A program made the position numbers and the translations under genes. Below, piece after piece: positions 1,666 to 21,810 of a stretch of 35,474 bases of DNA (within the stretch, counting starts at the first letter, position 1; each line of letters opens with the position of its first letter). Under the pieces are notes generated by a model. The model was given only the letters and a program-made list of their open reading frames with translations, was not told the origin of the DNA and searched no databases. This DNA is from a virus. The stretch is taken from the IMG/VR virus record IMGVR_UViG_3300026519_000035, positions 1-35,474 of that record. The stretch is one strand, 5' to 3'.

Positions 1666-2319
1666 ATGACTAATACAATAATAGAATACGACGAGGCACT
1701 AATTCTTGGAGGAACAAATACGGCAACCCTGTTTGCGGAAAACTACAAAACATCTCTCTACGATGTAGATAGTATAGTCCGAGACTACTCTCTAATCGTG
1801 TTTACCGGAGGCCCTGACGTTGACCCTGCCTCTTACGGAGAAAATCCGCACCCAGAAACACACTGTTCCACGGAAAGAGATTTACTAGAAAGAGAAATTT
1901 ACAAAGAGGCTTTTCGCAATAATATTCCTATGGTAGGAATTTGTAGGGGAGCACAGTTCTTGTGTGTTATGAACGGAGACAAGCTTGTGCAGCACGTCAC
2001 AGGACATTCTTACGGATACCACGACATTATTACAAAAACAGGAGATACAATAAAAGTTCTAGGAGATCATCACCAGATGATGTTGCCAGAAAAAGGAGAA
2101 ATTGTTGCCTTTTCTCATGGATTATCAGATAGATACAGAAATGGAGATGATAAGGAGATTTCTATGCCTCTCGTATGGCCGGGAGGCGCCAAAGAACCTG
2201 AAGCAGTGTGGTATGCTAATTCAAGATGTTTATGTATTCAATGGCATCCTGAATGGGACATAGAGAACGAAAAAGGACTACGATATTTTCAATCATTATT
2301 AGAGGAGCATGTGTTATGA
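1666..2319 (+). CDS. Class I glutamine amidotransferase-like hydrolase, peptidase C26 / PuuD type
   Basis: The 217-residue protein has the nucleophile elbow GICRGAQ (Cys about 93) and the catalytic HPE of QWHPEW (His about 194, Glu about 196). The TGGPDVDP motif near residue 48 is typical of gamma-glutamyl-gamma-aminobutyrate hydrolases (peptidase C26). Family members hydrolyse gamma-glutamyl amide bonds in the cytoplasm. A frame extension reaches back to a TTG at 1606, but ATG 1666 has a GAGG eight bases upstream and puts the known fold at the N-terminus, so I use 1666. It opens a cassette of amidoligases and other glutamyl-bond enzymes, where it could remove or proof-read gamma-glutamyl groups. 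The substrate is unknown. Confidence 0.85.
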   Translation: MTNTIIEYDEALILGGTNTATLFAENYKTSLYDVDSIVRDYSLIVFTGGPDVDPASYGENPHPETHCSTERDLLEREIYKEAFRNNIPMVGICRGAQFLCVMNGDKLVQHVTGHSYGYHDIITKTGDTIKVLGDHHQMMLPEKGEIVAFSHGLSDRYRNGDDKEISMPLVWPGGAKEPEAVWYANSRCLCIQWHPEWDIENEKGLRYFQSLLEEHVL

Positions 2320-2368
2320 ATAGCAGCCATTTACAGTATTATTTAACTTTTGTTTGCTGGAGATGTTT

Positions 2369-2581
2369 ATGAAATTTATCACAAACCTTTTAGGGAAAAG
2401 TAATGGGGATGTTTTTATACATGGGACCTGTATTGAAGCAACCGGCATTACTATAAACTCTGCCGATTCTATAAAAATTAGCTTTTGTATAGAAAAAGTA
2501 GACGTTTACAGGGAAGGAGATTGGATAGAACAGCATTATATACTGTGTCCAGAAATATCTATTACTAAACAAGGAGAATGA
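2369..2581 (+). CDS. Small protein of unknown function (70 aa)
   Basis: GGAG at 2359-2362 lies six bases before ATG 2369 and directly abuts ATG 2363, so 2369 is the better start. The N-terminus is hydrophobic (MKFITNLLG), followed by a predicted beta-rich body with two cysteines. It sits one base ahead of the COOH-NH2 ligase gene and must be co-transcribed with the cassette. No family recognised. Confidence 0.65.
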   Translation: MKFITNLLGKSNGDVFIHGTCIEATGITINSADSIKISFCIEKVDVYREGDWIEQHYILCPEISITKQGE

Positions 2582-2582
2582 T

Positions 2583-3407
2583 ATGGCAGACTTCACACTA
2601 GGACATGATGCAGAAGTATTTGTACGAGACATAGAAACAAAAAAGATAGTTCCTGTATTTGGCATGATAGGAGGAACTAAAAGCGATCCCTTGCCTGTAA
2701 AGCAGGGAGCTTTGCAAGAAGACAATGTCATGGCCGAACTTAACATCTATCCTGCAAAAACAGCACAAGAATTTATAAACAATACTAAAATAGTAATGGA
2801 AGAATTGCGGCAAAAGCTTTTGCCTTACGGAAACGAGCCACACATAGCTCCGGTATGGGATAATGTAAATAACCACGCCCTTAACACTGCTATGATGGAG
2901 GCTTTTGGACGGATTATTCCAGAAGACGAGCAGTTTGGCTGTGAGCCAGATTATTGCGCTTGGAAATTAGTGGAAAACGACCCAATCAATTTAGTAGGAG
3001 AGTCTTTTAGATTTTGTGGAGGACATATACATATAGGAGTGCCGTTTTCAGAAGATCAATGGAAAGTGGTACGTCTAGTAAGGCTGCTAGACCTTACATT
3101 ACTGACGGGGCTTAGGATTTTGTTTGGTACAAATAAAAGAGATCCACATTATGGAATGCCTGGCCGACACAGGCCCAAAGAATATGGAGTAGAATACCGC
3201 TCGCCCAGCAATCAATGGCTTTTGTACGAAAATGTACAAGAGTGGATACACAAAGTAGTCTCTGTTTGTGTAAATAGAGTAGAAGCAGGAGAGGAAGGAG
3301 AAGAAGTACAGCACGATAACCCTCTTCTACTTAAGAAACTTAGACTTTATCCGAGTCGCGTATACTCAGAAATGTTACCGGGCATACCTTTGCCTACAAT
3401 AGAGTAA
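2583..3407 (+). CDS. COOH-NH2 ligase type 2 (phiEco32-type amidoligase)
   Basis: A 274-residue protein with the signature blocks of the glutamine-synthetase-fold COOH-NH2 ligases: GHDAEVFV at 7-14, an acidic QEDNVMAELN block near 45-54, GGHIHIG at 146-152 and EYRSPSNQW at 204-212. In this fold such Glu and His residues bind metal and ATP. The enzymes join a carboxylate to an amine with ATP through an acyl phosphate. Family members occur in phages next to a second amidoligase, an ATP-grasp enzyme and a glutamine amidotransferase, as here. Length is normal and all blocks are present, so it should be active. The acceptor and donor are not known for the phage members. Confidence 0.9.
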   Translation: MADFTLGHDAEVFVRDIETKKIVPVFGMIGGTKSDPLPVKQGALQEDNVMAELNIYPAKTAQEFINNTKIVMEELRQKLLPYGNEPHIAPVWDNVNNHALNTAMMEAFGRIIPEDEQFGCEPDYCAWKLVENDPINLVGESFRFCGGHIHIGVPFSEDQWKVVRLVRLLDLTLLTGLRILFGTNKRDPHYGMPGRHRPKEYGVEYRSPSNQWLLYENVQEWIHKVVSVCVNRVEAGEEGEEVQHDNPLLLKKLRLYPSRVYSEMLPGIPLPTIE

Positions 3408-3423
3408 TTTACAGGAGGATATC

Positions 3424-4062
3424 ATGGATTTAGGAACAGATTCAATAAACGATTTTAATATAAAATATAAAGAAGGAAGTTATTTTATAGTAACAGATCC
3501 AAAAGGAAAAAAGGGGATATTTAAGACGGGTAGATTGCACGAAAATAAGGTTCTTGAAGGACGCATGTGCACAAACCCCAACAAGGGATTTGTTTCAGTA
3601 GCATTTCCTATAGAGGATATAGAAGCAGATTTTTCGTTTCCTAAACTAGGAGCCATTAACTACGACAAAGGAGTATGTATAGTTACTAGAAATGCCGTTA
3701 GGCAGTGGAGAAGAAGTCTTACATTTAGAAAGAATGTAATTTCTATAACTTTAATAGATGCTAATGTATTAGGCATGCATAGTAAAATGCTTACTGAAAA
3801 TGCTAAATCTGTGCACAGCATGTTTTTTCCTGAATATTACAATATAAACGAGGCCATAGAATTAATTCTCAAAAAGAAGAAAGTGACAGTTGCACTAAAT
3901 TCTCGGTACTATATAGGTATAAACTTGAGACTTCCTTATATATATCTAGGGTATAACGGCTATATAATTGGAAGGGTGAGAAAAAGGGACGGAGCGTGTC
4001 TGGTATTTCCTTCTGGAACTCCGTTAATTGAAAGTTTGTCTACTTTAGTGGAGGTAATATAA
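3424..4062 (+). CDS. Unknown protein within the amidoligase cassette (212 aa)
   Basis: The ATG follows ACAGGAGGATATC. The protein is soluble, basic in its C-terminal half and predicted beta-rich (YYIGINLRLPYIYLGYNGY near residues 161-180), with no cysteine pairs, signal or membrane segment. Its start lies 17 bases after the COOH-NH2 ligase and its stop three bases before the second amidoligase, so it is translated within the same unit. I recognise no family. A partner or substrate of the ligases is the natural guess from position. Confidence 0.8.
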   Translation: MDLGTDSINDFNIKYKEGSYFIVTDPKGKKGIFKTGRLHENKVLEGRMCTNPNKGFVSVAFPIEDIEADFSFPKLGAINYDKGVCIVTRNAVRQWRRSLTFRKNVISITLIDANVLGMHSKMLTENAKSVHSMFFPEYYNINEAIELILKKKKVTVALNSRYYIGINLRLPYIYLGYNGYIIGRVRKRDGACLVFPSGTPLIESLSTLVEVI

Positions 4063-4064
4063 TA

Positions 4065-5084
4065 ATGACATTCAACACATTATCAGAAGTATCAAACACT
4101 TCTTTAGATACAAGAAAATATCAAGAAGATCCAGATCTTCCTTTACCTAAAAATAAAGTAGGAATAGAAATAGAAGTAGAAAGTGATTCCCATGAGCTAA
4201 TTATGCAAGCTAACAAACTAACCATTGCCTGTACGGTATGGAAAACAGAGGTGGACTATAGTCTTAGGGAATATAGTACCGAACTTATTTCTAGACCTTT
4301 ATTTGGACTTGATATAAAGGATGCTCTATTGTTAATGGAATCCTTTATCAAACAAGACACTCAGTTAAGATTTTCTGATAGAACATCAGTACATATACAC
4401 ATGGAATGTATTGATATGTCTCCAAAACAGCTGTCTAATTTTGTTCTTTTGTATATTACGTTAGAAGAAGTGCTATTTAAATTTACGGCTCCACACAGAC
4501 ATGATAACATTTATTGTCTTCCGTTCTCTCTATCTGGCGGACTTCAGGCAAATACTAAAGCACTACTAGTACATTTGAACAATAACAATAAATCCGCAAC
4601 TAAGAGAATGTTATCAAGATGGCCTAAGTATTCTTCTATGAATCTTTCTAATATTCCAAACATAGGAACTATAGAATTTCGTGCACTAGACGGAACAGCA
4701 GACGCTTCTAGAATTTTGACATGGATAAAGATACTAATGTCTATTAAGAAGTATTCATTAGAATTCATGGAAGACGTAAATGACATACCAAAACTAGTAT
4801 CTGGAATGTCTCCTGAAGAATATATAGCAAATATTATGGGAGAAGAACTAGCCAAACACTTTGATTATCTAGAAGTGGGAACGGATCTTATGCGAGGCAC
4901 GCGTATTGCACAAGATATTATAATTCAATCTAACTTGGAGGAAAGCTCAGCAAGAATTCTAAGAAAACATACAAATCCAGAGGCTTCTTTGGCGTATAAA
5001 TTATACGGAGACACTCTTGTTTTTAAAGAGACAGTAAGCATAACTGATTGGCAAGTAGCACCACCTTCATTTTTTAATACATAA
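4065..5084 (+). CDS. Amidoligase family enzyme (glutamine-synthetase fold)
   Basis: The 339-residue protein carries the amidoligase blocks: VGIEIEVE at 32-39, VWKTEVDYSL near 58-67 followed by TELISRPL, SVHIHME at 108-114, and GTIEFRALDGT at 201-211. The alternating Glu/His motifs match those that bind Mg-ATP in this fold. It is distinct from the first ligase, so the cassette encodes two different amide-bond-forming enzymes. The start ATG follows GTGGAGGTAA. The C-terminal third beyond residue 215 is helical and not conserved in a way I recognise. The family is known to act on small molecules or peptide side chains; the phage substrate is undetermined. Confidence 0.85.
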   Translation: MTFNTLSEVSNTSLDTRKYQEDPDLPLPKNKVGIEIEVESDSHELIMQANKLTIACTVWKTEVDYSLREYSTELISRPLFGLDIKDALLLMESFIKQDTQLRFSDRTSVHIHMECIDMSPKQLSNFVLLYITLEEVLFKFTAPHRHDNIYCLPFSLSGGLQANTKALLVHLNNNNKSATKRMLSRWPKYSSMNLSNIPNIGTIEFRALDGTADASRILTWIKILMSIKKYSLEFMEDVNDIPKLVSGMSPEEYIANIMGEELAKHFDYLEVGTDLMRGTRIAQDIIIQSNLEESSARILRKHTNPEASLAYKLYGDTLVFKETVSITDWQVAPPSFFNT

Positions 5085-5096
5085 AGGAGACGGCAT

Positions 5097-6443
5097 ATGT
5101 GCGGTATCGTAGGCGTATTTAATACAACAAATTTAGACATTACGTCTAAGATTAAATTCTTTTCTGAGGCGCTGCTGGTAGATAGCCTTAGAGGGCATGA
5201 TTCTACAGGAGTTTTTGTAGTTGATAAAAACCAAAAGGACATCAGCATCTTTAAAAGAGCTATGGATGCTCCCGATTTTCTGGCTATGAATCAGTATTTA
5301 AGTATTAAAGCCGCCATGAGAACAGCTAATTTTATTGTAGGTCATAACAGGGCTGCTACACAAGGAGCTCTGACACACCATAACTCTCATCCTTTTAGTC
5401 ATGGTAAAATTGTCATGGTGCACAATGGCACTTTAACCAACCATAAATCATTGAAGGGAGGCAAGTCATTTTCTGTGGATAGCGAGGCATTCACTTACGC
5501 AATGGATGTTGTAGGAGAAAAGGAAACTTTAGAGACTGTTAAGGGGGCGTTTGCAGTAGTATGGTACAATACTGATACGGGCAAGCTGTACATGGCCAGA
5601 AATGATGAGAGGCCTTTACACTATGCCTTTACCAGTGATGGAAAGTCTGTATTAGTAGCATCTGAAGCACTAATGATTCCTTGGCTAGCTAGTCGTAAAG
5701 GTACGGATTTGAAACTAACTTCTCTTAAAGAAGTTCCAGTAGGAAAAATCTTATGTTTTGATCCAAAGGAGGTGCAAAAAGTAGAAGAAGAGGATTTTAC
5801 CCCGGCCGTACCTTCTTGGGAAAAATATTATCATGGAAACTACAGGGGTAGTTATAAAAAAGAACGCCACAAAAGCAATAGAAAGCATTTTCGCAGTGGC
5901 TCTGTTACTAGAGAGACTATAAAAACTAGACTACAAGAACATAAATTAGACTATGGAGATGATGTTCTGTTTGATGAGGTAGCTTTTTCTCTTTACAGTA
6001 AATCCTCTACCACAGGCAAGTTGTCGGGACTGCTTATAAAAGATAACGCTGCTGACAGCATAGAAATAGAAGCGCATAATGTTCCCGCGATTCTGTACGA
6101 AGAAGACGCTACGTATTGTGGTAAAATCTTAGGATTAAGGAAAGGCAAAGCTCTAGAAGAAGACATACTTCTACTTAATAATGTAGAGTTGGTCAGTCCT
6201 ATAGAGCCTAAAGAGACTCCTAAAGAGGAAAAACACGGAGGGCAATATCGCGGCCCAAAAGGAATATATGTATCGCGAAAAGTGTTCGAGGATCTTGTAT
6301 CCGATGGGTGCGCTTATTGTGGAAAAAATATAAATCCCCTACGGTCTGATGAAGTGAGTTGGATAGATGTAGCACAAGGTGGAGGGGCCGTTTGTCCCGA
6401 ATGCTCCACTATGTTGGCAGGGAGTGGCGCTATACAGCATTAA
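5097..6443 (+). CDS. Class II (Ntn) glutamine amidotransferase with C-terminal zinc ribbon
   Basis: The product starts MCGIVG, so removal of Met exposes the catalytic N-terminal Cys of class II amidotransferases. Other family blocks follow: LRGHDSTG at 31-38, VGHNRAATQG at 81-90, HNGTLTNH at 109-116 and DSEA near 128. This domain hydrolyses glutamine to glutamate and ammonia. The normal synthase partner domain is absent. Instead, residues from about 240 are an unrecognised region with a basic stretch (KKERHKSNRKHFRSG), and the end has two cysteine pairs, CAYC (405-408) and CPEC (433-436), resembling a treble-clef or ribbon zinc site. It probably supplies ammonia to the amidoligases or ATP-grasp enzyme encoded next to it. 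Confidence 0.9.
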   Translation: MCGIVGVFNTTNLDITSKIKFFSEALLVDSLRGHDSTGVFVVDKNQKDISIFKRAMDAPDFLAMNQYLSIKAAMRTANFIVGHNRAATQGALTHHNSHPFSHGKIVMVHNGTLTNHKSLKGGKSFSVDSEAFTYAMDVVGEKETLETVKGAFAVVWYNTDTGKLYMARNDERPLHYAFTSDGKSVLVASEALMIPWLASRKGTDLKLTSLKEVPVGKILCFDPKEVQKVEEEDFTPAVPSWEKYYHGNYRGSYKKERHKSNRKHFRSGSVTRETIKTRLQEHKLDYGDDVLFDEVAFSLYSKSSTTGKLSGLLIKDNAADSIEIEAHNVPAILYEEDATYCGKILGLRKGKALEEDILLLNNVELVSPIEPKETPKEEKHGGQYRGPKGIYVSRKVFEDLVSDGCAYCGKNINPLRSDEVSWIDVAQGGGAVCPECSTMLAGSGAIQH

Positions 6444-6445
6444 TT

Positions 6446-6462
6446 AGTAGTTCTGGACTACT
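6446..6462 (+). repeat. Intergenic inverted repeat, echoed at 9933-9946
   Basis: AGTAGT and ACTACT flank the five bases TCTGG, so the RNA can form a six-pair hairpin between the amidotransferase and ATP-grasp genes. Fourteen bases of its reverse complement recur exactly at 9933-9946, just before the helicase gene. A weak processing or transcription-attenuation site is possible. There is no U-tract, so it is not a standard terminator. Confidence 0.4.
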
Positions 6463-6481
6463 TCATTAGGAGAAATACGAA

Positions 6482-7267
6482 ATGAGGCCTATTATCTTTC
6501 CGTACAAGATGACAAGCGCAGGGGCTAAGGCGCTAGCTAAAAAGTTGGGATGTAAACGAGTTTATCCAAATAGGAAGTATTGCCCTAGTGCATACCATCT
6601 AATAATTAACTGGGGGCATAGCAAAGGGCCAACAACTTGGGGAGAAGACTGTGGAGAGTGGCTAAATCCTGTAATGTCTGTAGCGGCTGCGGCTAACAAA
6701 CTTACTGCCTTTAAAATTATGAATGAGGTGGGAGTATCTATCCCTGAATTTACTACAGATCCTTATGAAGCTGCGGACTGGTTCTATGACGGTCACACTG
6801 TCGTAGAACGCTCAACTCTTACTGGACATGGAGGAGAGGGAATATATCTTCATGTTCCAAATAGTGGCGAGGAAGATGTATTTGATATTTCAGATTCTCC
6901 TTTGTGGGTGAAGTATATCAAGAAAGCTGCTGAATATCGAGTACACGTATTCAACGGAGAAGTTATTGACGTACAGCAGAAAAGGAACCGAAAGGATTTT
7001 GATACCGAGGAGGTAAATTATCAGATTAGAAATTACGATAACGGATGGGTATTTTGTAGAGAAGATGTAGACCCAGATGATACGGTACTTGAAGAAGCTA
7101 TTAAAGCTGTAAAAGCTCTTGGACTAAATTTTGGGGCAGTAGACATTATTTGGAATGAGTATCATGCCAGAGCTTTTGTGCTAGAAGTAAATACTGCTCC
7201 TGGTCTACAAGGAAGTTCTGTGCAAATATATGCAAAAGCTATAGAAGAATATTGTAATAACACTTAA
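6482..7267 (+). CDS. ATP-grasp ligase (RimK-like)
   Basis: This 261-residue protein shows ATP-grasp features: a KLTAFKIMNEVGVSIPEF block near 92-109, a glycine-rich ATP loop TGHGGEGIY near 134, the WVKYIKKAAEYRVHVF strand near 161, and the Mg-binding FVLEVNTAPGLQG at 232-244 (Glu235, Asn237). RimK-type members add glutamate or other amino acids to a carboxylate through an acyl phosphate. Length is short but complete for this group. It follows the amidotransferase by 38 bases and precedes the cyclotransferase by 10, in one cassette. Its substrate may be the product of the amidoligases or a peptide tag. Confidence 0.88.
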   Translation: MRPIIFPYKMTSAGAKALAKKLGCKRVYPNRKYCPSAYHLIINWGHSKGPTTWGEDCGEWLNPVMSVAAAANKLTAFKIMNEVGVSIPEFTTDPYEAADWFYDGHTVVERSTLTGHGGEGIYLHVPNSGEEDVFDISDSPLWVKYIKKAAEYRVHVFNGEVIDVQQKRNRKDFDTEEVNYQIRNYDNGWVFCREDVDPDDTVLEEAIKAVKALGLNFGAVDIIWNEYHARAFVLEVNTAPGLQGSSVQIYAKAIEEYCNNT

Positions 7268-7277
7268 GGAGAATTTT

Positions 7278-7649
7278 GTGGAAGAAAAAACAAAAGTATT
7301 CGTATACGGCAGCTTGTTAAGTACTCTGTCGAACAACTATTTGCTAAAAGACTCCACACTACTAGGAATGCACGAAACAGAAGAAGAGTACACCATGTAT
7401 GAAATGGGATACTTTCCTGGAGTGAGGAAAGGAGGAACCACATCAATAAAAGGAGAAGTATATGACGTAGACCTACATACGCTGTCGCGCCTTGATATAT
7501 TGGAGGGCACCCCAACATTTTATCACCGTCATCACATAGAAACTAATTATGGAAAGGCAATTATGTATCTTCTCACTAATACCTGTAATGCGCCTATAGT
7601 ATTCTCGGGGGACTGGAAAGCACACTTACAAGGAGACACAAAATGCTAG
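7278..7649 (+). CDS. Gamma-glutamylcyclotransferase / AIG2-like protein
   Basis: GTG start, with AAGGAG nine bases upstream. The 123-residue protein has the AIG2/GGCT hallmarks: VFVYGSLL at 8-14, IKGEVYDVD near 57-65, and RLDILEGTPTFYHR at 71-84, whose Glu76 is at the position of the catalytic acid in this fold. Members cyclise gamma-glutamyl groups to 5-oxoproline, releasing the attached amine. In this cassette it would undo or trim gamma-glutamyl linkages made by the ligases. Its 3' end overlaps the next start by seven bases. Confidence 0.87.
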   Translation: MEEKTKVFVYGSLLSTLSNNYLLKDSTLLGMHETEEEYTMYEMGYFPGVRKGGTTSIKGEVYDVDLHTLSRLDILEGTPTFYHRHHIETNYGKAIMYLLTNTCNAPIVFSGDWKAHLQGDTKC

Positions 7650-8467
7650 CTAGCAAGCACGTAGAACCTTACAACTCTATTTACTCGCCCTCATATAACG
7701 AAGACTCCCAATCTTCTGATGTACGATGGAGTCCAGTTGCAGTAAAAAATGGGAACTTGTACCAAACTGGACATTTTTTCAAATGCAAAGATTACTTCAA
7801 TGAAGTGGTGTTGGGATTAAGAACAAAGAGTAAAACGGAGAGTATTTATGGCTTTTCTTTTGACCCTACAAAGCACCCTATCCCAAAAGATTATTTTTAT
7901 GTGCTACTAAAGTCTAAAAAAACCAACAATGTAGTTGAGGGAATTAAAAATATTCTTAATCCTGTAGAGAAGGCCGCGGGACTGGCATTAACTGAAACCT
8001 TCGACACATCTATTAAAAATACTATATTAATTAAAATGGACAGTATTTTTATCAGGGAAACCTACACAATATCAATGCATACTCTCTTAATAAGACTTAT
8101 GTATTATTATGAAGGAGAATCTCTAGAGCTAGAAGAATTTATTATGAGACTATCAGTACGTCTGTCGAATAGAAATACAGACAAAACAGCCCTAGAGAGG
8201 ATTATGCGCCTAATTAATGTACACTTCTTTAGACAGTTTTATAATGTGCTGCCTAACATAGTGTCGTCAGGAAACAAGTTATTTAGTAGCAGAGTAGCTA
8301 AAATGGACAAACATAGTTTTCACAATAGAACTGGTATTTACTATTTTACGAGATATGTGTACTCTATTGTGTACGGAAATATATATAGAGAAACAGATCT
8401 GTATAGTATTTTAACAAAAAGGGCTATTCGTAACATAAAAACAGAACTAGTTCCTTTCATTAAGTAA
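7643..8467 (+). CDS. Unknown protein at the end of the amidoligase cassette (274 aa)
   Basis: The ATG overlaps the cyclotransferase gene and follows AAGGAGACACAAA, so it is translationally coupled. The first 100 residues are polar with aromatic clusters. The rest is helical and strongly basic (many Arg, Lys, Tyr), e.g. IYYFTRYVYSIVYGNIYR near residues 232-249. No catalytic motif, cysteine pair or membrane span stands out. I do not recognise it. Coupling to the cassette is the only functional hint. Confidence 0.78.
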   Translation: MLASKHVEPYNSIYSPSYNEDSQSSDVRWSPVAVKNGNLYQTGHFFKCKDYFNEVVLGLRTKSKTESIYGFSFDPTKHPIPKDYFYVLLKSKKTNNVVEGIKNILNPVEKAAGLALTETFDTSIKNTILIKMDSIFIRETYTISMHTLLIRLMYYYEGESLELEEFIMRLSVRLSNRNTDKTALERIMRLINVHFFRQFYNVLPNIVSSGNKLFSSRVAKMDKHSFHNRTGIYYFTRYVYSIVYGNIYRETDLYSILTKRAIRNIKTELVPFIK

Positions 8468-8485
8468 CAACTAGAGGAGATATTT

Positions 8486-8698
8486 ATGAGTATTTTTACA
8501 TCCGAAGTAGAATGTCCTGTATGTGGCAACAATGTAGATTCAGATAATGATTCTTTTGATTGCATAGAATCAATGTGTCCTTTTGCTGTGTATAATTACT
8601 CAGCAGAAACACCACTAGATTTTGACAACCAAGGCAACAGAGGAGCGGAATATATTCCTTATGATGACGAGGAATTATATGATGATATTACAAAATAG
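8486..8698 (+). CDS. Small acidic zinc-ribbon protein (70 aa)
   Basis: ATG after CTAGAGGAGATATTT. Residues 10-31 hold CPVCG and, further on, a C-x4-C pair (CIESMC), giving a probable single zinc site. The remaining C-terminus is very acidic (YDDEELYDD). Phages encode many such short ribbon proteins, often of unknown role. It closes the cassette and overlaps a possible 23-residue membrane peptide. Confidence 0.75.
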   Translation: MSIFTSEVECPVCGNNVDSDNDSFDCIESMCPFAVYNYSAETPLDFDNQGNRGAEYIPYDDEELYDDITK

Positions 8699-8917: not shown

Positions 8918-9757
8918 ATGAATACATCTCATAATCAAGAAATCCTACTGCTAGCCCAAGCACTAGCACCGTTCGAGACTGACAATAGTTCTTCTTGTCC
9001 TTTTTGTTCAGGAGGCATTAGCAAAGATAAGAGCTTTAGTGTTACTAGGGTAGCGGAAGGTGTCTTGTATAATTGTTACAGAGCTACATGTGGGGAATCT
9101 GGATTTATTCCCTCTACTAAAATGCAAGCTTCTGTAGGCACGGTATATGATACAGACGGAAAGAAAAATAAAGCGTTGATGAAGACATTTACTCCCAAAA
9201 TATATAAGTATTCTTTAGTTCCTTTGTCTATAGAACAAGAGGTATTCTTTTTCAACAAGTTTGGTTTGACTCACGCAGAAATAAAAGCTAACGATATTAA
9301 GTGGAGTCCTGCAAGGGGTTCTTATGCCTTTCCTGTATTTGATTATAGGGGCTATACTATAGGCATTATGGACAGGTCATACACCGGAAGAAAGCCCAAA
9401 GCTATTATGTACTGGGAAAAGGACGAACCAAAAATGCACTTTCCACAAGGAGGAAAGCACAACAAGAGTACAACTATCTTTTTAGTTGAAGATCATATTA
9501 GCGCCATCAAGATGTCCCGATACTGTCGTTGTGTGGCCTTGCTGGGCACACACCTAACAGACAGGGCTGCGGTTATTTTAAATTATCTAGCAGATAACAT
9601 TGTATTCTGTTTTGATAATGATGCTACTAATAAAGCCATCAAGCTAGCCAAACATTTCTCTGCTCTATTTAAAGGAACAGAAGTACTACATCTAAACAAA
9701 GATCCAAAGGACATGACAGATAAGGAACTAAAAAAACTGACAAGTAACAAACTGTAA
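8918..9757 (+). CDS. DNA primase (zinc-binding plus TOPRIM domain)
   Basis: The 279-residue protein begins with a zinc-binding domain (CPFC at 27-30, then C53 and C58 in CYRATC) and ends with a TOPRIM domain: FLVEDHISAIK near 188-198 with the conserved Glu, and FCFDNDATNK near 230-239 with the metal-binding acidic pair. This is the primase half of T7 gp4-type proteins, which makes RNA primers for lagging-strand synthesis. The helicase is encoded separately downstream rather than fused as in T7. The start has AAGGAG seven bases upstream. Confidence 0.9.
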   Translation: MNTSHNQEILLLAQALAPFETDNSSSCPFCSGGISKDKSFSVTRVAEGVLYNCYRATCGESGFIPSTKMQASVGTVYDTDGKKNKALMKTFTPKIYKYSLVPLSIEQEVFFFNKFGLTHAEIKANDIKWSPARGSYAFPVFDYRGYTIGIMDRSYTGRKPKAIMYWEKDEPKMHFPQGGKHNKSTTIFLVEDHISAIKMSRYCRCVALLGTHLTDRAAVILNYLADNIVFCFDNDATNKAIKLAKHFSALFKGTEVLHLNKDPKDMTDKELKKLTSNKL

Positions 9758-9823
9758 ACTGATATAATTGAACTATGTGCTAAAGGAGCTGTCTAATTAA
9801 TTTAAATAGTGGAGGAAATTATT

Positions 9824-9910
9824 ATGTGCTGTGATCCTGTAGGCTCTACTTTGCCTGAAGTAGGTAAGTGTTCGGTATGTGGATTCGCTCCCTGTGGCCT
9901 TTCTTGCTAA
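9824..9910 (+). CDS. Cysteine-rich micropeptide (28 aa)
   Basis: ATG 9824 follows GTGGAGGAAATT and opens 28 codons ending at TAA 9908-9910. Six of 28 residues are cysteine: two at the start (MCCDPVG), a CSVCG knuckle, then CGLSC at the end. This could bind one zinc ion. It sits alone between primase and helicase genes, in a gap that otherwise holds only the repeat at 9933-9946. It is too short for confident family assignment, but the ribosome binding site and composition are unlikely by chance. Confidence 0.55.
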   Translation: MCCDPVGSTLPEVGKCSVCGFAPCGLSC

Positions 9911-9932
9911 ATAGTATGACATATTTCTAAAT

Positions 9933-9946
9933 AGTCCAGAACTACT
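9933..9946 (+). repeat. Inverted copy of the 6446-6462 intergenic motif
   Basis: Fourteen bases (AGTCCAGAACTACT) equal the reverse complement of part of the hairpin at 6446-6462. They contain a weaker dyad (TAGT/ACTA around CCAGA) and lie 31 bases before the helicase start. Confidence 0.4.
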
Positions 9947-9976
9947 CTTATACGTACAAAAAAGGATATTATATGA

Positions 9977-11182
9977 ATGTCAGATAATAAAATATTAAAT
10001 CTATGTTTTTCGGATCGCGCAGCTTTTTCAGAAATAACTAAGTATTTGTCTTCAGAAGATTTTGAAGGGCATTCCAATATTCTTTTAAAATATATAGAGG
10101 AATATTATGAAATAGATCCAGATGCTAAAAAATGTGATAAGGATATTATTCTATCTAGAATTGAGCGAGCTCACCCCAAGCACGTTTCTACATTTAAGGC
10201 TATACTAAATGGATTTACTGATATATCAGTTCCTAATATTCTAAAAGAAGTGCTAGAAGTAAAGAAAAGAAACATAAGTCAAGCACTTTCTGGAGCGTTG
10301 CTAGCAGGAAAAAGTGATTCTTTAATATCTTCTTTGATTAAAGAATATTCAGATATACAAGAAGGGCTTTTGCAAGAAGAGGAAGACAGATCGGAGCCAG
10401 ATACCTACATAGCAGAGCCGGTCGAAAACCTATGTACGTCCTTTTCTGAGACGGGCTTGGTGAAGGTATATCCTAAGACTCTCAATGATGTTCTTGGAGG
10501 AGGAGTGCCTAAACAAACACACATTGTAGTCTTTGCTTCTCCAGAAACAGGAAAGAGTCTTGTAGCTATAAATATGGCGGCTGGCTTTTGTAGGGATGGA
10601 AGAAAGACCTTGTTTATAGAGAACGAAGATCCTGCTGCCAGTACTCTTATGAGGTTTGTGAATAGAATGTCTGGTATGTCTAAGATGGAGGTGCTGCAAG
10701 ATTATAAAAAGGCACAGGACAGGGCATTAGAAAAGGGATACGGAAACTTAGTATTTAGTTCCGTATCTCCAGGAAATATTAAAGAAATAGAGGCTTTAAT
10801 AGAAGAGCATAAACCTGAATGTCTGGTAGTAAACCAAATACGACACTTGGCATTTAGAGGTACAGAAGGAGAGGTCGCGCAGATATCTATGGCCGGTAAG
10901 GCCATGAGAACTCTTATAAAGAAATATAATTTAGTAGGAATATCAGTGCATCAGGCAGGGGCTAGCGCAGATAACAAGCTAGTATTAGAGAGATCTGACT
11001 GCTATATGAGCAACACATCACTGCCGGGAGATGCTGATATTATGCTAGGTATAGGAGTTAATGATCAGTTCAAGGACGAAAGTAAAAGAATGTTTTCTTT
11101 AGTAAAAAATAAGATGAACGGAGATCATAGTTTTTTCGCTGTGTCTGTAAATGAGCAACTATCAAAGGTTATGAGCCTATGA
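9977..11182 (+). CDS. Replicative DNA helicase (DnaB / T7 gp4 helicase-like, RecA fold)
   Basis: Residues 1-140 form a helical N-terminal region. From about 165 a RecA-type ATPase follows, introduced by LNDVLGGGVPKQTHIVVFAS. Walker A is SPETGKS near 188-194, an acidic ENEDP follows near 215, and the Walker B strand is PECLVVNQ near 278 with Asn in place of the usual Asp. A late LVKNKMNG motif resembles the arginine-finger strand of this family. It should form the hexameric ring unwinding DNA 5' to 3' with the separate primase encoded upstream. The start is preceded by AAAAAAGGAT. The stop overlaps the next start. Confidence 0.88.
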   Translation: MSDNKILNLCFSDRAAFSEITKYLSSEDFEGHSNILLKYIEEYYEIDPDAKKCDKDIILSRIERAHPKHVSTFKAILNGFTDISVPNILKEVLEVKKRNISQALSGALLAGKSDSLISSLIKEYSDIQEGLLQEEEDRSEPDTYIAEPVENLCTSFSETGLVKVYPKTLNDVLGGGVPKQTHIVVFASPETGKSLVAINMAAGFCRDGRKTLFIENEDPAASTLMRFVNRMSGMSKMEVLQDYKKAQDRALEKGYGNLVFSSVSPGNIKEIEALIEEHKPECLVVNQIRHLAFRGTEGEVAQISMAGKAMRTLIKKYNLVGISVHQAGASADNKLVLERSDCYMSNTSLPGDADIMLGIGVNDQFKDESKRMFSLVKNKMNGDHSFFAVSVNEQLSKVMSL

Positions 11183-11379
11183 AACTTTACGAATTGGAAA
11201 AAGGAATGCAGTTTGTTTTGCAGGGAACCGAGGACAGCCCAGTATTTACACTAGAGCACATTGATGGTATGTACAGCAGCTGTATTTATAAAGAAGAAGA
11301 GGAAACAAAGGTGATGCATATTGTTGCTTTTGCAGACGTAAATATTGTCTTATCTGAGGAGCCTATTAAAAAGGAGTAG
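11179..11379 (+). CDS. Small protein of unknown function (66 aa)
   Basis: ATG overlaps the helicase stop (ATGA), so it is coupled to it. The product is acidic with predicted beta strands (FTLEHIDGMY, MHIVAFADVNIVL). A frame of this size directly behind a replicative helicase may be a small accessory protein; nothing identifies it. Confidence 0.65.
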   Translation: MKLYELEKGMQFVLQGTEDSPVFTLEHIDGMYSSCIYKEEEETKVMHIVAFADVNIVLSEEPIKKE

Positions 11380-11386
11380 AATACTT

Positions 11387-11623
11387 ATGTACATTAGAAG
11401 ATATAAACTACTGTCCAATAGTTCTGATGCCGACATTAAATGGGAGAGAGATTCTAATGGAAACGCACTTAAATTTGAGGACTTTAATGCACTATTACAG
11501 GCCGTAGACTCTTATGTAAGAAGTGTGGATTCTTCAAGTACGGATCTATCAGAAGAAGCACGTACTCTGGTAAAAGTAGTTGCAGCAATGAATGTATTAT
11601 TTGTTGAGGACCTTAAAGAATGA
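11387..11623 (+). CDS. Small protein of unknown function (78 aa)
   Basis: The frame extends back to a TTG at 11345, but ATG 11387 has AAGGAG 12 bases upstream and avoids overlap, so I use it. The N-terminus is basic (MYIRRYKLL) and the remainder acidic and helical. Its end overlaps the phosphoesterase start. No family recognised. Confidence 0.65.
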   Translation: MYIRRYKLLSNSSDADIKWERDSNGNALKFEDFNALLQAVDSYVRSVDSSSTDLSEEARTLVKVVAAMNVLFVEDLKE

Positions 11624-14706: not shown

Positions 14707-14781
14707 GCGGGTATAGCTCAATGGTAGAGCACTGTCCTTCCAAGTCAGATGTTGCGGGTTCGAGTCCCGCTATCCGCTCCA
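14707..14781 (+). tRNA. tRNA-Gly (UCC)
   Basis: Acceptor GCGGGTA pairs with TATCCGC, D arm GCTC/GAGC, anticodon loop CTTCCAA (anticodon TCC), T arm GCGGG/CCCGC with loop TTCGAGT, and encoded CCA at 14779-14781. The anticodon stem has one T-T mismatch. It reads GGA, which is very common in the genes of this window. Confidence 0.95.
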
Positions 14782-14794
14782 CTTTTATTTTATT

Positions 14795-14872
14795 GCCCCT
14801 GTGGCCAAATTGGATTAAGGCATGAGATTTCTACTCTCACGATTACAGGTTCGAGTCCTGTCAGGGGTACCA
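14795..14872 (+). tRNA. tRNA-Arg (UCU)
   Basis: Acceptor GCCCCTG/CAGGGGT, anticodon stem TGAGA/TCTCA around loop TTTCTAC (anticodon TCT), T arm ACAGG/CCTGT with loop TTCGAGT, discriminator A and encoded CCA at 14870-14872. It reads AGA, a codon rare in many Gram-negative hosts but common in these genes. Confidence 0.95.
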
Positions 14873-14878
14873 CTTTTT

Positions 14879-14968
14879 ATGCTGGTGGGGATGAAGTAAG
14901 AAGACCCGGCCAACAAGCCGCGACCGCCTCTCTCTGATGCGCACCATCGTTGCCGGGCGCCAGCATTC
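14879..14968 (+). ncRNA. Unidentified GC-rich structured element inside the tRNA cluster
   Basis: ATGCTGGTG (14879-14887) pairs with CGCCAGCAT (14960-14968), nine pairs with one G-U. Within it CCCGGC (14905-14910) pairs with GCCGGG (14952-14957 region), directly stacked on the outer helix on the 3' side and separated by a 17-base asymmetric loop on the 5' side. The intervening sequence is distinctly GC-rich compared with all neighbours. It has no T-loop, D-arm or CCA and is not a recognisable tRNA. A small ribozyme, processing signal or decayed tRNA-like gene is possible. Confidence 0.45.
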
Positions 14969-14980
14969 TATTAGTTTTTT

Positions 14981-15055
14981 GCCAGAGTAGCTCAGTGGTA
15001 GAGCTGGTACCTTGTAAGTACTAGGTTGCAGGTTCGATTCCTGCCTCTGGCTCCA
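14981..15055 (+). tRNA. tRNA-Thr (UGU)
   Basis: Acceptor GCCAGAG/CTCTGGC, D arm GCTC/GAGC, anticodon stem GGTAC/GTACT around loop CTTGTAA (anticodon TGT), T arm GCAGG/CCTGC with loop TTCGATT, and encoded CCA at 15053-15055. It reads ACA. Confidence 0.96.
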
Positions 15056-15060
15056 CACTA

Positions 15061-15138
15061 GGGCCGATAGCATAACAGGTTAATGCAACCGACTCATAAT
15101 CGGAAGAAGGAGCGGTTCGAGTCCGCCTCGGCCCACCA
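15061..15138 (+). tRNA. tRNA with CAU anticodon, probably tRNA-Ile2
   Basis: Acceptor GGGCCGA/TCGGCCC, D stem GCAT/ATGC, anticodon loop CTCATAA (anticodon CAT), T loop TTCGAGT, discriminator A and encoded CCA 15136-15138. Acceptor pairs 4-69 and 5-68 are both C-G, the pairs known to mark E. coli tRNA-Ile2 for lysidine modification by TilS rather than elongator Met. That change would let it read AUA, which is frequent in this AT-rich genome. Elongator Met is the alternative. Confidence 0.92.
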
Positions 15139-18792: not shown

Positions 18793-19047
18793 ATGTCTCA
18801 GTCTGTTTCTATCATGGAAGATTTTGTAGCATACGAAAAGCTAAACGACCCAGTCTCTTCTCCTAAACACTATACTCAAGGAGAAATAGAGGTAATTGAT
18901 TTTATTATGGACCAAGGATTTGATTACTTAGAAGGAAATGTGTGTAAATACCTTTGCAGATATAAGTATAAGAATGGTTTGGAAGATCTTAAAAAGGCGC
19001 AGTGGTATCTGAACAAGCTTGTGGAGGAAACTAGTAACAATGGATGA
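18793..19047 (+). CDS. DUF3310 protein
   Basis: The 84-residue product matches the DUF3310 pattern: PKHYTQGEIEVIDFI near 24-38, CKYLCRYKYKNGLEDLKKAQWYL near the C-terminus. Such proteins are widespread in phages, usually among nucleotide-metabolism or replication genes. They have been called nucleotide kinase-like in annotation, but their function is not established. It immediately precedes and slightly overlaps the ribonucleotide reductase gene. Confidence 0.88.
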   Translation: MSQSVSIMEDFVAYEKLNDPVSSPKHYTQGEIEVIDFIMDQGFDYLEGNVCKYLCRYKYKNGLEDLKKAQWYLNKLVEETSNNG

Positions 19048-20018
19048 TTACCAAACTTTTATAGCGACGTCTAGGTACAGTAGGTGGCTAGAAGATGAAA
19101 GAAGACGGGAGACTTGGGAAGAGACTGTAAAACGATACATTACTTTTATGCAGAAGACAGCAAGCAAGTCTGTTGGCCTAGATGATGGCATCCTTAATGC
19201 CTTGTATAGATGCGAAGACAAGATACTATCTCTAGAAGTTATGCCTAGTATGAGAATGCTAATGACCGCAGGTCCTGCTCTAGCTCGTGATAATATGGCA
19301 GGCTTTAATTGTTCTTTTTTGCCTATAAATACTATTCGTGCTTTTGATGAAGCTATGTATATATTGCTATGTGGCACAGGAGTAGGATTTAGTGTAGAAA
19401 GACAGTATATAAATGACTTACCAGAGGTGCCTTATGAGCTTTATGAAACGGACACTGTGCTTACAGTACGCGATTCAAAAATTGGATGGGCTTCAGCGTA
19501 CAGAGAACTCATTGCGCTTCTATATTCTGGAGTCATTCCGAGATGGGATACTTCTAGAGTTAGACCGGCGGGAGCTAGACTTAAGACTTTTGGAGGCAGA
19601 GCGAGCGGCCCGGAACCTCTTGAAGACTTGTTTAGATTTACAATCTCGGTATTCAAAGGAGCTGCTGGAAGAAAATTAAACAGTATTGAATGTCATGATA
19701 TTGTATGTAAAATAGCGGACATAGTAGTTGTTGGCGGGGTTCGTAGATCCGCACTTATTTCTCTTAGTAACCTCACAGATGAAAGAATGCGTAAGGCCAA
19801 ACACGGACAGTGGTGGGAAGAAAATCCACAGAGAGCTCTGGCAAATAACTCAGTATGTTATACTGAGAAGCCGGACATGGGAATTTTTATGAAAGAATGG
19901 AGGGCATTGTACGAGTCTAAATCAGGAGAGAGGGGAATATACAATAGACAGGCTGCTAAAAAAGTGGCAGCAAGAAATGGTAGAAGAGATATATCTTATG
20001 ATTTTGGAACAAATCCGT
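19040..20018 (+). CDS. nrdJ: Class II ribonucleotide reductase, exon 1
   Basis: Exon 1 encodes residues 1-326 and the first base of codon 327. The family N-terminus YSRWLEDERRRETWEETV is near 12-29. GFNCSFLPIN near 92-101 holds one redox Cys, GTGVGFSVE follows near 113-121, and VGGVRRSALISLSN comes later. The exon ends YDFGTNP, just before the catalytic Cys. GGAGG lies 13 bases before ATG 19040; a TTG at 19019 is less likely. Unspliced reading stops at TGA 20033-20035, so the message must be spliced. The enzyme makes deoxynucleotides using adenosylcobalamin, without oxygen or a second subunit, for phage DNA synthesis. Confidence 0.92.
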
Positions 20019-20863
20019 TAACGGTAGCGGCCTGAAGAAGTAATTCTTTTTGAATAACTATTCTAAAAACGGAGAAACTCCTTGTAAGGACAACCCCGTG
20101 CTAATCCAGTATTGGAGTGTGTAACGACTATGAGTATAGACAAGAAACAGCTTAGTAAACTTCTTTCTTATATGACAACTTTTGGCGGTGGGGTGTATTG
20201 GCCACACAAAAGAAAAGAAACCTCAAAAGTAAACTGTAAGTTTATTATGAATATGAGACAAGAAAATCTAGATTATGTGCTATGGGTAGCCTCGGTACTA
20301 AAAGAGGTAACAGGTGTTAGGATTATAGATCGTAAAGATTATAATGTTGATGGATGTACTAGAAAAGAGCAAGTTCGTTTAGAATCTAGAAGACACCCAT
20401 ATTTCACAAAACTAAGGGAGCGTATTTATATAGATAATCATAAAGTGCTAGATCCTCATATGCTTAAAATGATGGACGCGGAAGCACTTGCTATTATCTT
20501 TATGACTGATGGAAGTTCTAGTCTTGATACTAGATTTAAAAATCCCCACTGTAAGATTACTTTAGAAACAAAAGGCTTTAGCTATGCAGACAATCTTGCT
20601 TTGAGTAAGGCCATCTACACTGCTACTGGTATTAGAACAAATGTACAACGAAGGGGCAAATACTACATGTTGTATGTAAAAACTAAAGACCATAAACTTT
20701 TTGTTGATACTGTAAGTCCTTATATGCTCGACAGTTTCTTGTACAAACTCGAACGAATAGCTCCTGCTTTGCAGGATGGTGATATAGTCTGCACTGATAC
20801 GAAAGTATCAGAGATTGACAGAGATGATCAATCCCTTCTTGAAAAAGAAGAGTAACAATGTGG
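20019..20863 (+). mobile_element. Group I intron in the ribonucleotide reductase gene
   Basis: The 845-nt insert splits the catalytic Cys codon. P1: exon CCGT (20015-20018) pairs with GCGG (20027-20030), giving the required U-G at the splice site. P7: GACTA (20126-20130) pairs with TAGTC (20785-20789), preceded by GATA as in the conserved S element. Two GAAA-capped hairpins follow, CTGATAC/GTATCAG (20794-20811) and CTTCTT/AAGAAG (20835-20850), fitting P9 helices. The intron ends in G20863. Joining 20018 to 20864 restores NPCSEIILRPNQVCNL in frame, 642 codons in all. The subgroup is not determined. Confidence 0.92.
20130..20855 (+). CDS. Intron-encoded LAGLIDADG-type homing endonuclease
   Basis: ATG 20130 has GGAG 12 bases upstream; a TTG at 20112 extends the frame by six codons. 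The 241-residue product has LSKLLSYMTTFGGGVYW near 9-25 and ALAIIFMTDGSSS near 117-129, resembling the two LAGLIDADG helices. The second carries the catalytic-type acidic residue; the first has Gly in that position and may be degenerate. The frame begins within P7 and ends eight bases before the intron end, so it also encodes the 3' half of the ribozyme core. It would cut intron-less copies of the reductase gene and spread the intron. Confidence 0.8.
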   Translation: MSIDKKQLSKLLSYMTTFGGGVYWPHKRKETSKVNCKFIMNMRQENLDYVLWVASVLKEVTGVRIIDRKDYNVDGCTRKEQVRLESRRHPYFTKLRERIYIDNHKVLDPHMLKMMDAEALAIIFMTDGSSSLDTRFKNPHCKITLETKGFSYADNLALSKAIYTATGIRTNVQRRGKYYMLYVKTKDHKLFVDTVSPYMLDSFLYKLERIAPALQDGDIVCTDTKVSEIDRDDQSLLEKEE

Positions 20864-21810
20864 GCAGTGAAATAATTCTACGTCCTAATCAAGTCTGCAA
20901 TTTGACAGAAGTTGTTGTAAGGAGCGAGGATACTTTAGCAAATCTTGCAGAAAAAGTAGAGCTTGCTACTATCCTTGGTACAGTACAATCAATGTTGACT
21001 AACTTCAGATATCTTGGAAAAAAATGGCAAAAAAACACAGAAGAAGAGCGCTTGCTTGGGGTCAGTCTTACAGGAATAATGGATCATCCTATAATGTCGG
21101 GCAATACCCTGCGCGGCAGTTTTGAAAATGGAATGTTCTTAAAAGAAGCGCTTGAGTATCTAAGACAAGTGGCAGTAGATACTAACAAAATATGGGCAGA
21201 ACAGTTAGAAATAGAACAAAGTGCTGCCATAACTTGTGTTAAACCAAGTGGAACTGTAAGCCAATTAGTTAATAGTTCTAGTGGCATTCATGCCAGGCAT
21301 TCCAAGTTCTACATCAGAACGGTGAGGGTTGATAAAAAAGATCCTATATATCCTTTTTTGAAGGAGCAAGGGATTCCTGTAGAAGATGCTTTTGGAAAGG
21401 AACAAAGCACTGCTGTGTTTAGTTTTCCTGTTGCAAGTCCTGACGACGCCACTACTCGTAATGACATGACTGCTATAGAGCAACTAGAGCTATGGAAGAT
21501 TTATGCAGAGCATTGGTGTGAACATAAACCTAGTGTTACTATTTCTGTACGAGAGCATGAATGGATGGAGGTAGGTGCGTGGGTATACAGAAACTTTGAT
21601 ATTTGTTCTGGTGTAAGTTTTCTTCCTCATACAGATCATGTGTACAAACAAGCCCCTTATCAGGACATTACCGAAGAGGAGTACAAAGAGTTTGTTAATA
21701 AAATTCCTGCAATTGATTGGAGCAAACTTAGTGAGTATGAAACCGAAGACAACACTACAACAGACCACGAGCTTGCCTGTTCTGCGGGAGGCTCCTGCGA
21801 AATCCTGTAA
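20864..21810 (+). CDS. nrdJ: Class II ribonucleotide reductase, exon 2
   Basis: Exon 2 supplies the last two bases of the catalytic Cys codon (residue 327) and residues to 641. It starts SEIILRPNQVCNLTEVVVR, holding the second active-site Cys in QVCNL. It includes ACVKPSGT-type CVKPSGTVSQL and the SGIHARHSKFYIRTVR block of monomeric adenosylcobalamin-dependent reductases. The C-terminus has the Cys pair CSAGGSCEIL that is re-reduced between turnovers. An ATG-like frame from 20815 runs through the intron end and is an artefact. The protein is shorter than the about 739-residue Lactobacillus enzyme but has all key residues. Confidence 0.92.

Follow-up and report, generated by a model that had tools for sequence, protein, structure and literature searches.

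The stretch of DNA analysed here, referred to as the window, is a linear virus record of 35,474 bp (IMG/VR record IMGVR_UViG_3300026519_000035). Positions 1666-8698 hold a cassette of genes from amide-forming and gamma-glutamyl-cleaving families. The cassette itself is already known and the window is a further member. PMC5498523, citing Iyer and Hardies, gives the name 'peptidoglycan modification cassette' and a proposed role in preventing superinfection; the cell-wall/superinfection hypothesis is also found in PMC10580990 and PMC11945000. The cassette has been linked to Iyer 2009 and Hardies 2013 (RIO-1), both as cited in later papers, and to Duhaime 2017 (PSA-HP1). The original prediction, made from the sequence of the window, rightly placed such gene associations in phages including phiEco32 relatives, but missed both the literature name and the published hypothesis (PMC5498523, PMC10580990).

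Gene content and active sites

The cassette consists of ten open reading frames (ORFs) in one direction, each preceded by a good ribosome-binding site, with intergenic gaps of -7 to 49 nt (Table 1); the co-directional, partly coupled arrangement described at first is thus confirmed. No membrane helices are predicted in the ten ORFs. For the first small ORF, the ATG at 2369 is the more likely start. The domain assignments of the six enzymes, made by profile searches, are firm: PHROGs concur with Pfam throughout, and both recover the gene content read originally (a C26 hydrolase, two amidoligases, an amidotransferase, an ATP-grasp ligase, a GGCT-like protein and four unknown or zinc-ribbon proteins). 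The active sites had also been read as intact, and this holds: in alignments of 58-150 non-redundant homologues per enzyme, the window proteins match the columns conserved at 93% or more, catalytic residues included, and the few departures at conserved columns are all non-catalytic.

Table 1. Features of the cassette and the adjoining replication genes in the window
Feature	Position	Strand	Description	Basis
C26	1666..2319	+	Peptidase C26 / class I glutamine amidotransferase (GATase)-fold gamma-glutamyl hydrolase, 217 aa	Pfam Peptidase_C26 (E 2.6e-21), phrog_7218, PDB profile matches, NCBIfam; nearest PuuD/SpuA-type
Small ORF	2369..2581	+	70 aa (75 aa if start at 2354)	In no family
CNL	2583..3407	+	phiEco32-type COOH-NH2 ligase, 274 aa	PF14395 COOH-NH2_lig (1.5e-9), phrog_3815 (3.3e-50)
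X4	3424..4062	+	Conserved partner protein, 212 aa, beta-rich	phrog_11055 (unknown function), AlphaFold (AF2) model, Foldseek
AL2	4065..5084	+	Amidoligase_2, 339 aa	PF12224 (3.5e-12), phrog_7469
GAT2	5097..6443	+	Class II glutamine amidotransferase (GAT-II) with C-terminal CxxC...CxxC zinc ribbon	Pfam GATase_6 (6.9e-18), phrog_4736, motifs
GRASP	6482..7267	+	RimK-like ATP-grasp ligase, 261 aa	Pfam RimK-like ATP-grasp (2.8e-5), phrog_2599, NCBIfam, motifs
GGCT	7278..7649	+	Gamma-glutamylamine cyclotransferase-type (GGACT/AIG2/YtfP), GTG start	Pfam GGACT (3e-20), phrog_2520, motifs
X0b	7643..8467	+	Fast-evolving protein, 274 aa	Invariant C48, H227
Small acidic zinc-ribbon protein	8486..8698	+	70 aa	ORF call, Pfam search
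Primase and DnaB-like helicase	8918..11182	+	Primase 8918-9757, helicase 9977-11182	Replication genes adjoining cassette end

The invariant residues of CNL are D9, E11, K33, D47, E52, H148, R197, E204 and R206, and those of AL2 are E35, E37, S66, E73, H110, H112, E204 and R206. The two belong to different Pfam families, a profile comparison of CNL with Amidoligase_2 shows no similarity, and no PDB homologue was found for either. The two amidoligases had been called unrelated; this is neither shown nor excluded, because HxH and ExR-type motifs are common to both.

The GAT-II protein keeps its active-site residues (Cys2, R85, N110-G111 and D128). The name GlmS, used for it in phage annotations, was rejected: the score is 56.8 against a cut-off of 418 bits and the N-terminal glutaminase alone matches. 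In 17 related GAT-II genes the codon before the catalytic Cys2 is ATT (11) or ATC (6), an apparent AUU/AUC start which causes ORF callers to drop the active-site Cys (loci L006, L016, L020, L030, L033, L038, L042, L044, L052, L054, L055, L060, L072, L076, L079, L089 and L103 in our numbering). Most of these have a GGAG-like site a few nt upstream; the window gene starts with ATG. In a phage TL-like record (L015, 45,696 bp; 10780-11477) GAT-II is in two pieces, with the N-terminal glutaminase split off from the C-terminal part; either the domains may be able to exist apart, or this gene may be in decay.

The ATP-grasp protein keeps the conserved residues E151, R153, K167, D221, E235 and N237, and is nearest to RimK glutamate ligases and to graspetide cyclases / peptide maturases. 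Only the Pfam RimK domain cut-off is exceeded (24.3 vs 21 bits); the NCBIfam RimK-family cut-off (36.6 vs 143.4 bits) and those of the Pfam R2K clades (R2K_2 22.6 vs 26.2, R2K_3 20.4 vs 26.3 bits) are not reached.

Concerning the two putative cleaving enzymes, the C26 triad (C93, H194, E196) is conserved at 98-100% in 88 homologues and the Pfam score is 76.8 bits against a cut-off of 20.5. PDB profile matches are Lin1909, 7d4r and PuuD (6vtv); NCBIfam matches are PuuD, whose equivalog cut-off is not reached (38.8 vs 266 bits), and, weakly, gamma-glutamyl-CDP-amidate hydrolase (7.6e-10). The GGACT-type protein scores 73.4 bits against a Pfam cut-off of 22.8, conserves the YGSL motif (Y10, G11, L13) and the catalytic-type Glu E76, and in profile comparisons is nearest to YtfP and human GGACT.

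Distribution of the core and interchange of C26 and GGACT

A tblastn search finds the COOH-NH2 ligase in 315 phage records and GAT-II in 341. Outside phages, no plasmid has the ligase, and across 84,980 species only four metagenome-assembled contigs do. Viral contigs were scanned three times, with the mutually unrelated COOH-NH2 ligase, ATP-grasp and C26 as seeds. The core (COOH-NH2 ligase, Amidoligase_2, GAT-II and ATP-grasp) is complete in all loci with 7 kb either side of the seed (39/39, 41/41 and 40/40), and its genes are co-directional in 209/209 loci.

The cluster persists across differing gene orders. The LUZ24-like order of the window, which the original prediction proposed to look for in other phages, recurs; in the Zobellviridae-like class GAT-II is ahead of the COOH-NH2 ligase, and a third class, including contigs of ~50-105 kb, has the order GGCT, ATP-grasp, C26, ligase, GAT-II, amidoligase and no X4. 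C26 is often in two copies in the third class (L178, L189, L200, L206, L223, L228 and similar, with contigs of ~90-105 kb among them). Two copies of ATP-grasp flank the core in L103 and L124, and L143 and L151 have a second GAT-II and GGCT downstream.

The same gene set is found in LUZ24 gp16-gp22, UFV-P2, tf, phiEco32/NJ01, GP100 and CVT22. The podovirus cassette has the enzyme families of the window in the order COOH-NH2 ligase, X4, Amidoligase_2, GAT-II, ATP-grasp, GGCT; in the window too, four ligase/amidotransferase genes and a gamma-glutamyl-cleaving enzyme are clustered on one strand beside primase and helicase. Unlike LUZ24 and NJ01 (GGCT only) or GP100 and CVT22 (C26 only), the window has both cleaving families; it also has a distinct 274-aa protein after GGCT, and the identity of its core to relatives is 25-50%. 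In a lysate of SU10, peptides of ATP-grasp, GATase and YtfP were detected, and these are listed as early gene products (PMC4281155).

C26 and GGACT, which are unrelated folds, stand in for each other, and the co-occurrence of the core genes is obligate. Among 75 non-redundant loci whose core is flanked by 4 kb or more on either side, 39 contain C26 alone, 17 GGACT alone, 19 both and none neither (Fisher 3e-7). A tree-based test was also run, because relatedness inflates the Fisher figure. On the tree of the concatenated core, C26 changes six times and GGACT ten times, and a dependent two-trait model is preferred to an independent one (twice the log-likelihood difference 19.7, 4 degrees of freedom, p ~6e-4). 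When independent evolution was simulated with totals matched, 0/94 runs ended without a 'neither' locus. The interchange is a new constraint on the chemistry of the cassette.

Variable proteins and surroundings of the cassette

With few exceptions, X4 adjoins the amidoligase wherever the cassette is of a podovirus version. Its confident AF2 model (mean predicted local distance difference test, pLDDT, 88) contains an SH3/Tudor-like small barrel, but Foldseek finds no PDB fold match for the model at E < 0.001; its other matches are phage proteins of unknown function. In X0b, C48 and H227 are invariant and D50 and G231 near-invariant; its model, of weak confidence (pLDDT 73), has no PDB fold match. 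X0a, a family of similar size, is found upstream of C26 in 43/75 loci and has a near-invariant Cys and Arg. Compared over the same pairs, mean identity is 20% for X4 and 17% for X0a, against 39% and 40% for ATP-grasp, respectively; this divergence, far above that of the enzymes, suggests recognition or acceptor roles for X4 and X0a, though such roles are speculative.

A single superfamily of X0a, X0b, LUZ24 gp14 and gp15 and the NJ01 proteins is unsupported by profile-profile comparison and iterated hidden Markov model (HMM) searches; an early Cys motif is all that they have in common. Around the GGCT of Aeromonas phage LAh_8 (L174, 1843-6247) lie four proteins, 266-322 aa long, that have a C[FWY] motif early in the sequence, and an HMM joins two of them to the X0a family; X0 may be locally expanded there. 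The small ORFs were considered as conserved peptide substrates and rejected: both window ORFs are in no recurrent family, and none of the ORFs in the cassette regions of related loci is homologous to them.

Most relatives likewise have the cassette beside primase/helicase, in the early or replication region. The remainder of the window is that of an ordinary podovirus: primase, DnaB-like helicase, PolA-type polymerase, exonuclease, metallophosphoesterase and ribonucleotide reductase, then a minus-strand structural module. The ribonucleotide reductase (19019-21810) is in two parts, and the break falls precisely at profile position 385-386, directly following the FGTNP of its conserved NPCGEI-type region. 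A LAGLIDADG endonuclease ORF (20112-20855) lies in the break, which also holds stops; no Rfam match for a group I intron reached threshold. Five tRNA genes, two with a CAT anticodon, are found at 1023-1099 and 14707-15138. PADLOC anti-phage defence models gave 0 matches at E <= 0.001 for the 8 proteins searched.

Proposed pathway and alternatives

Known systems offer parallels to a gamma-glutamyl group that is added and then removed. In the Puu/Spu putrescine pathway (PuuA-PuuD) a ligase adds a gamma-glutamyl group to an amine and a C26 hydrolase, of the type nearest to the window protein, removes it. In butirosin synthesis, the ATP-grasp enzyme BtrJ attaches gamma-Glu and the GGACT-family enzyme BtrG takes it off as 5-oxoproline. 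PuuA-PuuD and BtrJ-BtrG both follow the logic of a handle or protecting group. A gamma-glutamyl handle is likewise taken off by a C26 member when Campylobacter makes the O-methyl phosphoramidate surface modification of its capsule. The likeness has limits in each case: unlike Puu/Spu, the window lacks the oxidase/dehydrogenase steps, has other ligases with GAT-II and ATP-grasp in addition, and scores far under the PuuD cut-off; it lacks the carrier protein and aminoglycoside genes of butirosin; and it has none of the nucleotidyl and kinase partners of the capsule pathway, whose family match is weak and far under cut-off. A metabolism paper on phage JBD44 eht1/eht2 was rejected as a parallel, the genes being unrelated.

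Our preferred reading, to which we give a probability of about 0.45, is that the cassette encodes a cytoplasmic amide-ligation pathway with a temporary gamma-glutamyl group. The ligase or ligases (COOH-NH2 ligase, Amidoligase_2, ATP-grasp) would join carboxylates to amines using ATP, with ammonia taken from glutamine by GAT-II, and in at least one step glutamate would be joined to an amine via its gamma-carboxyl. The same amine would then be freed by C26 hydrolysis (giving glutamate) or by GGACT cyclisation (giving 5-oxoproline); the phage would therefore need at least one of the two, and which one would hardly matter. That a gamma-glutamyl amide is built and then removed is suggested by the interchange and by the nearest families of both proteins, which cleave such amides. 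In podovirus versions, X4 would partner the ligases without being an enzyme itself. The hypervariable Cys protein, which is X0b in the window, would give specificity or serve as acceptor. A more elaborate version is possible but doubtful: an amine would receive a gamma-glutamyl handle, two further ligases and GAT-II would build on the molecule or protein, and either of the two unrelated enzymes would then take the handle off, with the fast-diversifying X0 and X4 setting the target and a new amide-linked metabolite or tag as product.

Several points weigh against the temporary gamma-glutamyl group. C26 scores far under NCBIfam equivalog cut-offs and GGACT is without any NCBIfam match; C26 could also be a second ammonia source, since its fold and triad are common to glutaminases. 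In 200 random sets of independent pairs, C26 and GGACT never change in the same direction, but the sign test is underpowered. With totals unconditioned, 5% of simulated runs under independent evolution have no 'neither' locus. Two records outside the 75-locus set, L164 (85 kb) and L059 (58.5 kb, its cassette 2-3 kb from the contig end), contain the core and neither cleaving family in the whole record.

The final target is a weaker point. The proteins, predicted to be soluble, could act on an envelope precursor, on a small molecule or on a protein: an envelope precursor is tentatively put first, a small molecule and a protein tag are each rather unlikely, and bulk DNA modification is disfavoured as improbable, because the DNA of phage tf is cut by restriction enzymes.

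Among the alternatives, the enzymes may equip a cytoplasmic precursor of peptidoglycan or another envelope component with unusual amide links or amino acids, so that the wall is altered and later phages are excluded; we regard this as possible, well short of an even chance. Soluble enzymes would suit a cytoplasmic precursor, and D-Glu in peptidoglycan is linked via its gamma-carboxyl. The proposal has been made for RIO-1-like podoviruses, phiEco32, LUZ24, tf and others (PMC5498523, PMC10580990, PMC11945000) on a comparative basis only; our literature search found no altered muropeptide and no experiment demonstrating a cassette product or a peptidoglycan change, in agreement with the original statement that no product has been proven. 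Lytic phages also have scant time for wall remodelling, and Gordonclarkvirinae are known to use O-antigen glycans rather than peptidoglycan as receptors (PMC11990801).

It is less probable, and on balance unlikely, that host or phage proteins are tagged or modified, either through glutamylation of the RimK type or through ligation of peptides, with X0 and X4 recognising the targets. The nearest relatives of the ATP-grasp protein are consistent with this, the divergence of X4 and X0a, well beyond that of the enzymes, is what recognition parts would be expected to show, and phage R2K-type ligases are predicted to modify host proteins (PMC4431377). Yet ligation to protein alone needs no GAT-II, two GS-like ligases or gamma-glutamyl cleaver, homology among the X0 families is not demonstrable, and the ~50-105 kb class lacks X4.

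Covalent base modification of DNA, or another anti-restriction product, is improbable. The cassette adjoins primase and helicase, and cassette-bearing Gordonclarkvirinae are remarkably restriction-resistant with no known modification pathway (PMC11990801), a resistance which weighs against the original preference for a small-molecule, surface or peptide product; the BASEL authors, however, favour a dCTP deaminase as its cause. That preference is otherwise reasonable: tf DNA (cassette L062) was cut by RsaI, HpaI, EcoRV, SmaI and HaeIII and cloned (PMC3517423), and, as first reported, no base-modifying gene is recognised in the window. The original interpretation is, overall, partly supported. 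Salvage or nitrogen scavenging, in which gamma-glutamyl compounds and glutamine would be degraded to feed nucleotide synthesis while the ligases work independently, suits the catabolic C26 and GGACT families and the release of ammonia by GAT-II, but is the least probable and fits poorly, because the four biosynthetic genes are kept together in every well-flanked locus.

Sequenced phages with the cassette, whose role was proposed around 2009, number in the hundreds; their hosts include Pseudomonas, Escherichia, Vibrio and Aeromonas, and therapeutic candidates are among them. The interchange of C26 and GGACT points to a narrower chemistry, in which a gamma-glutamyl amide would be formed and then taken away, and gives a concrete mass to seek and a simple cross-complementation test.

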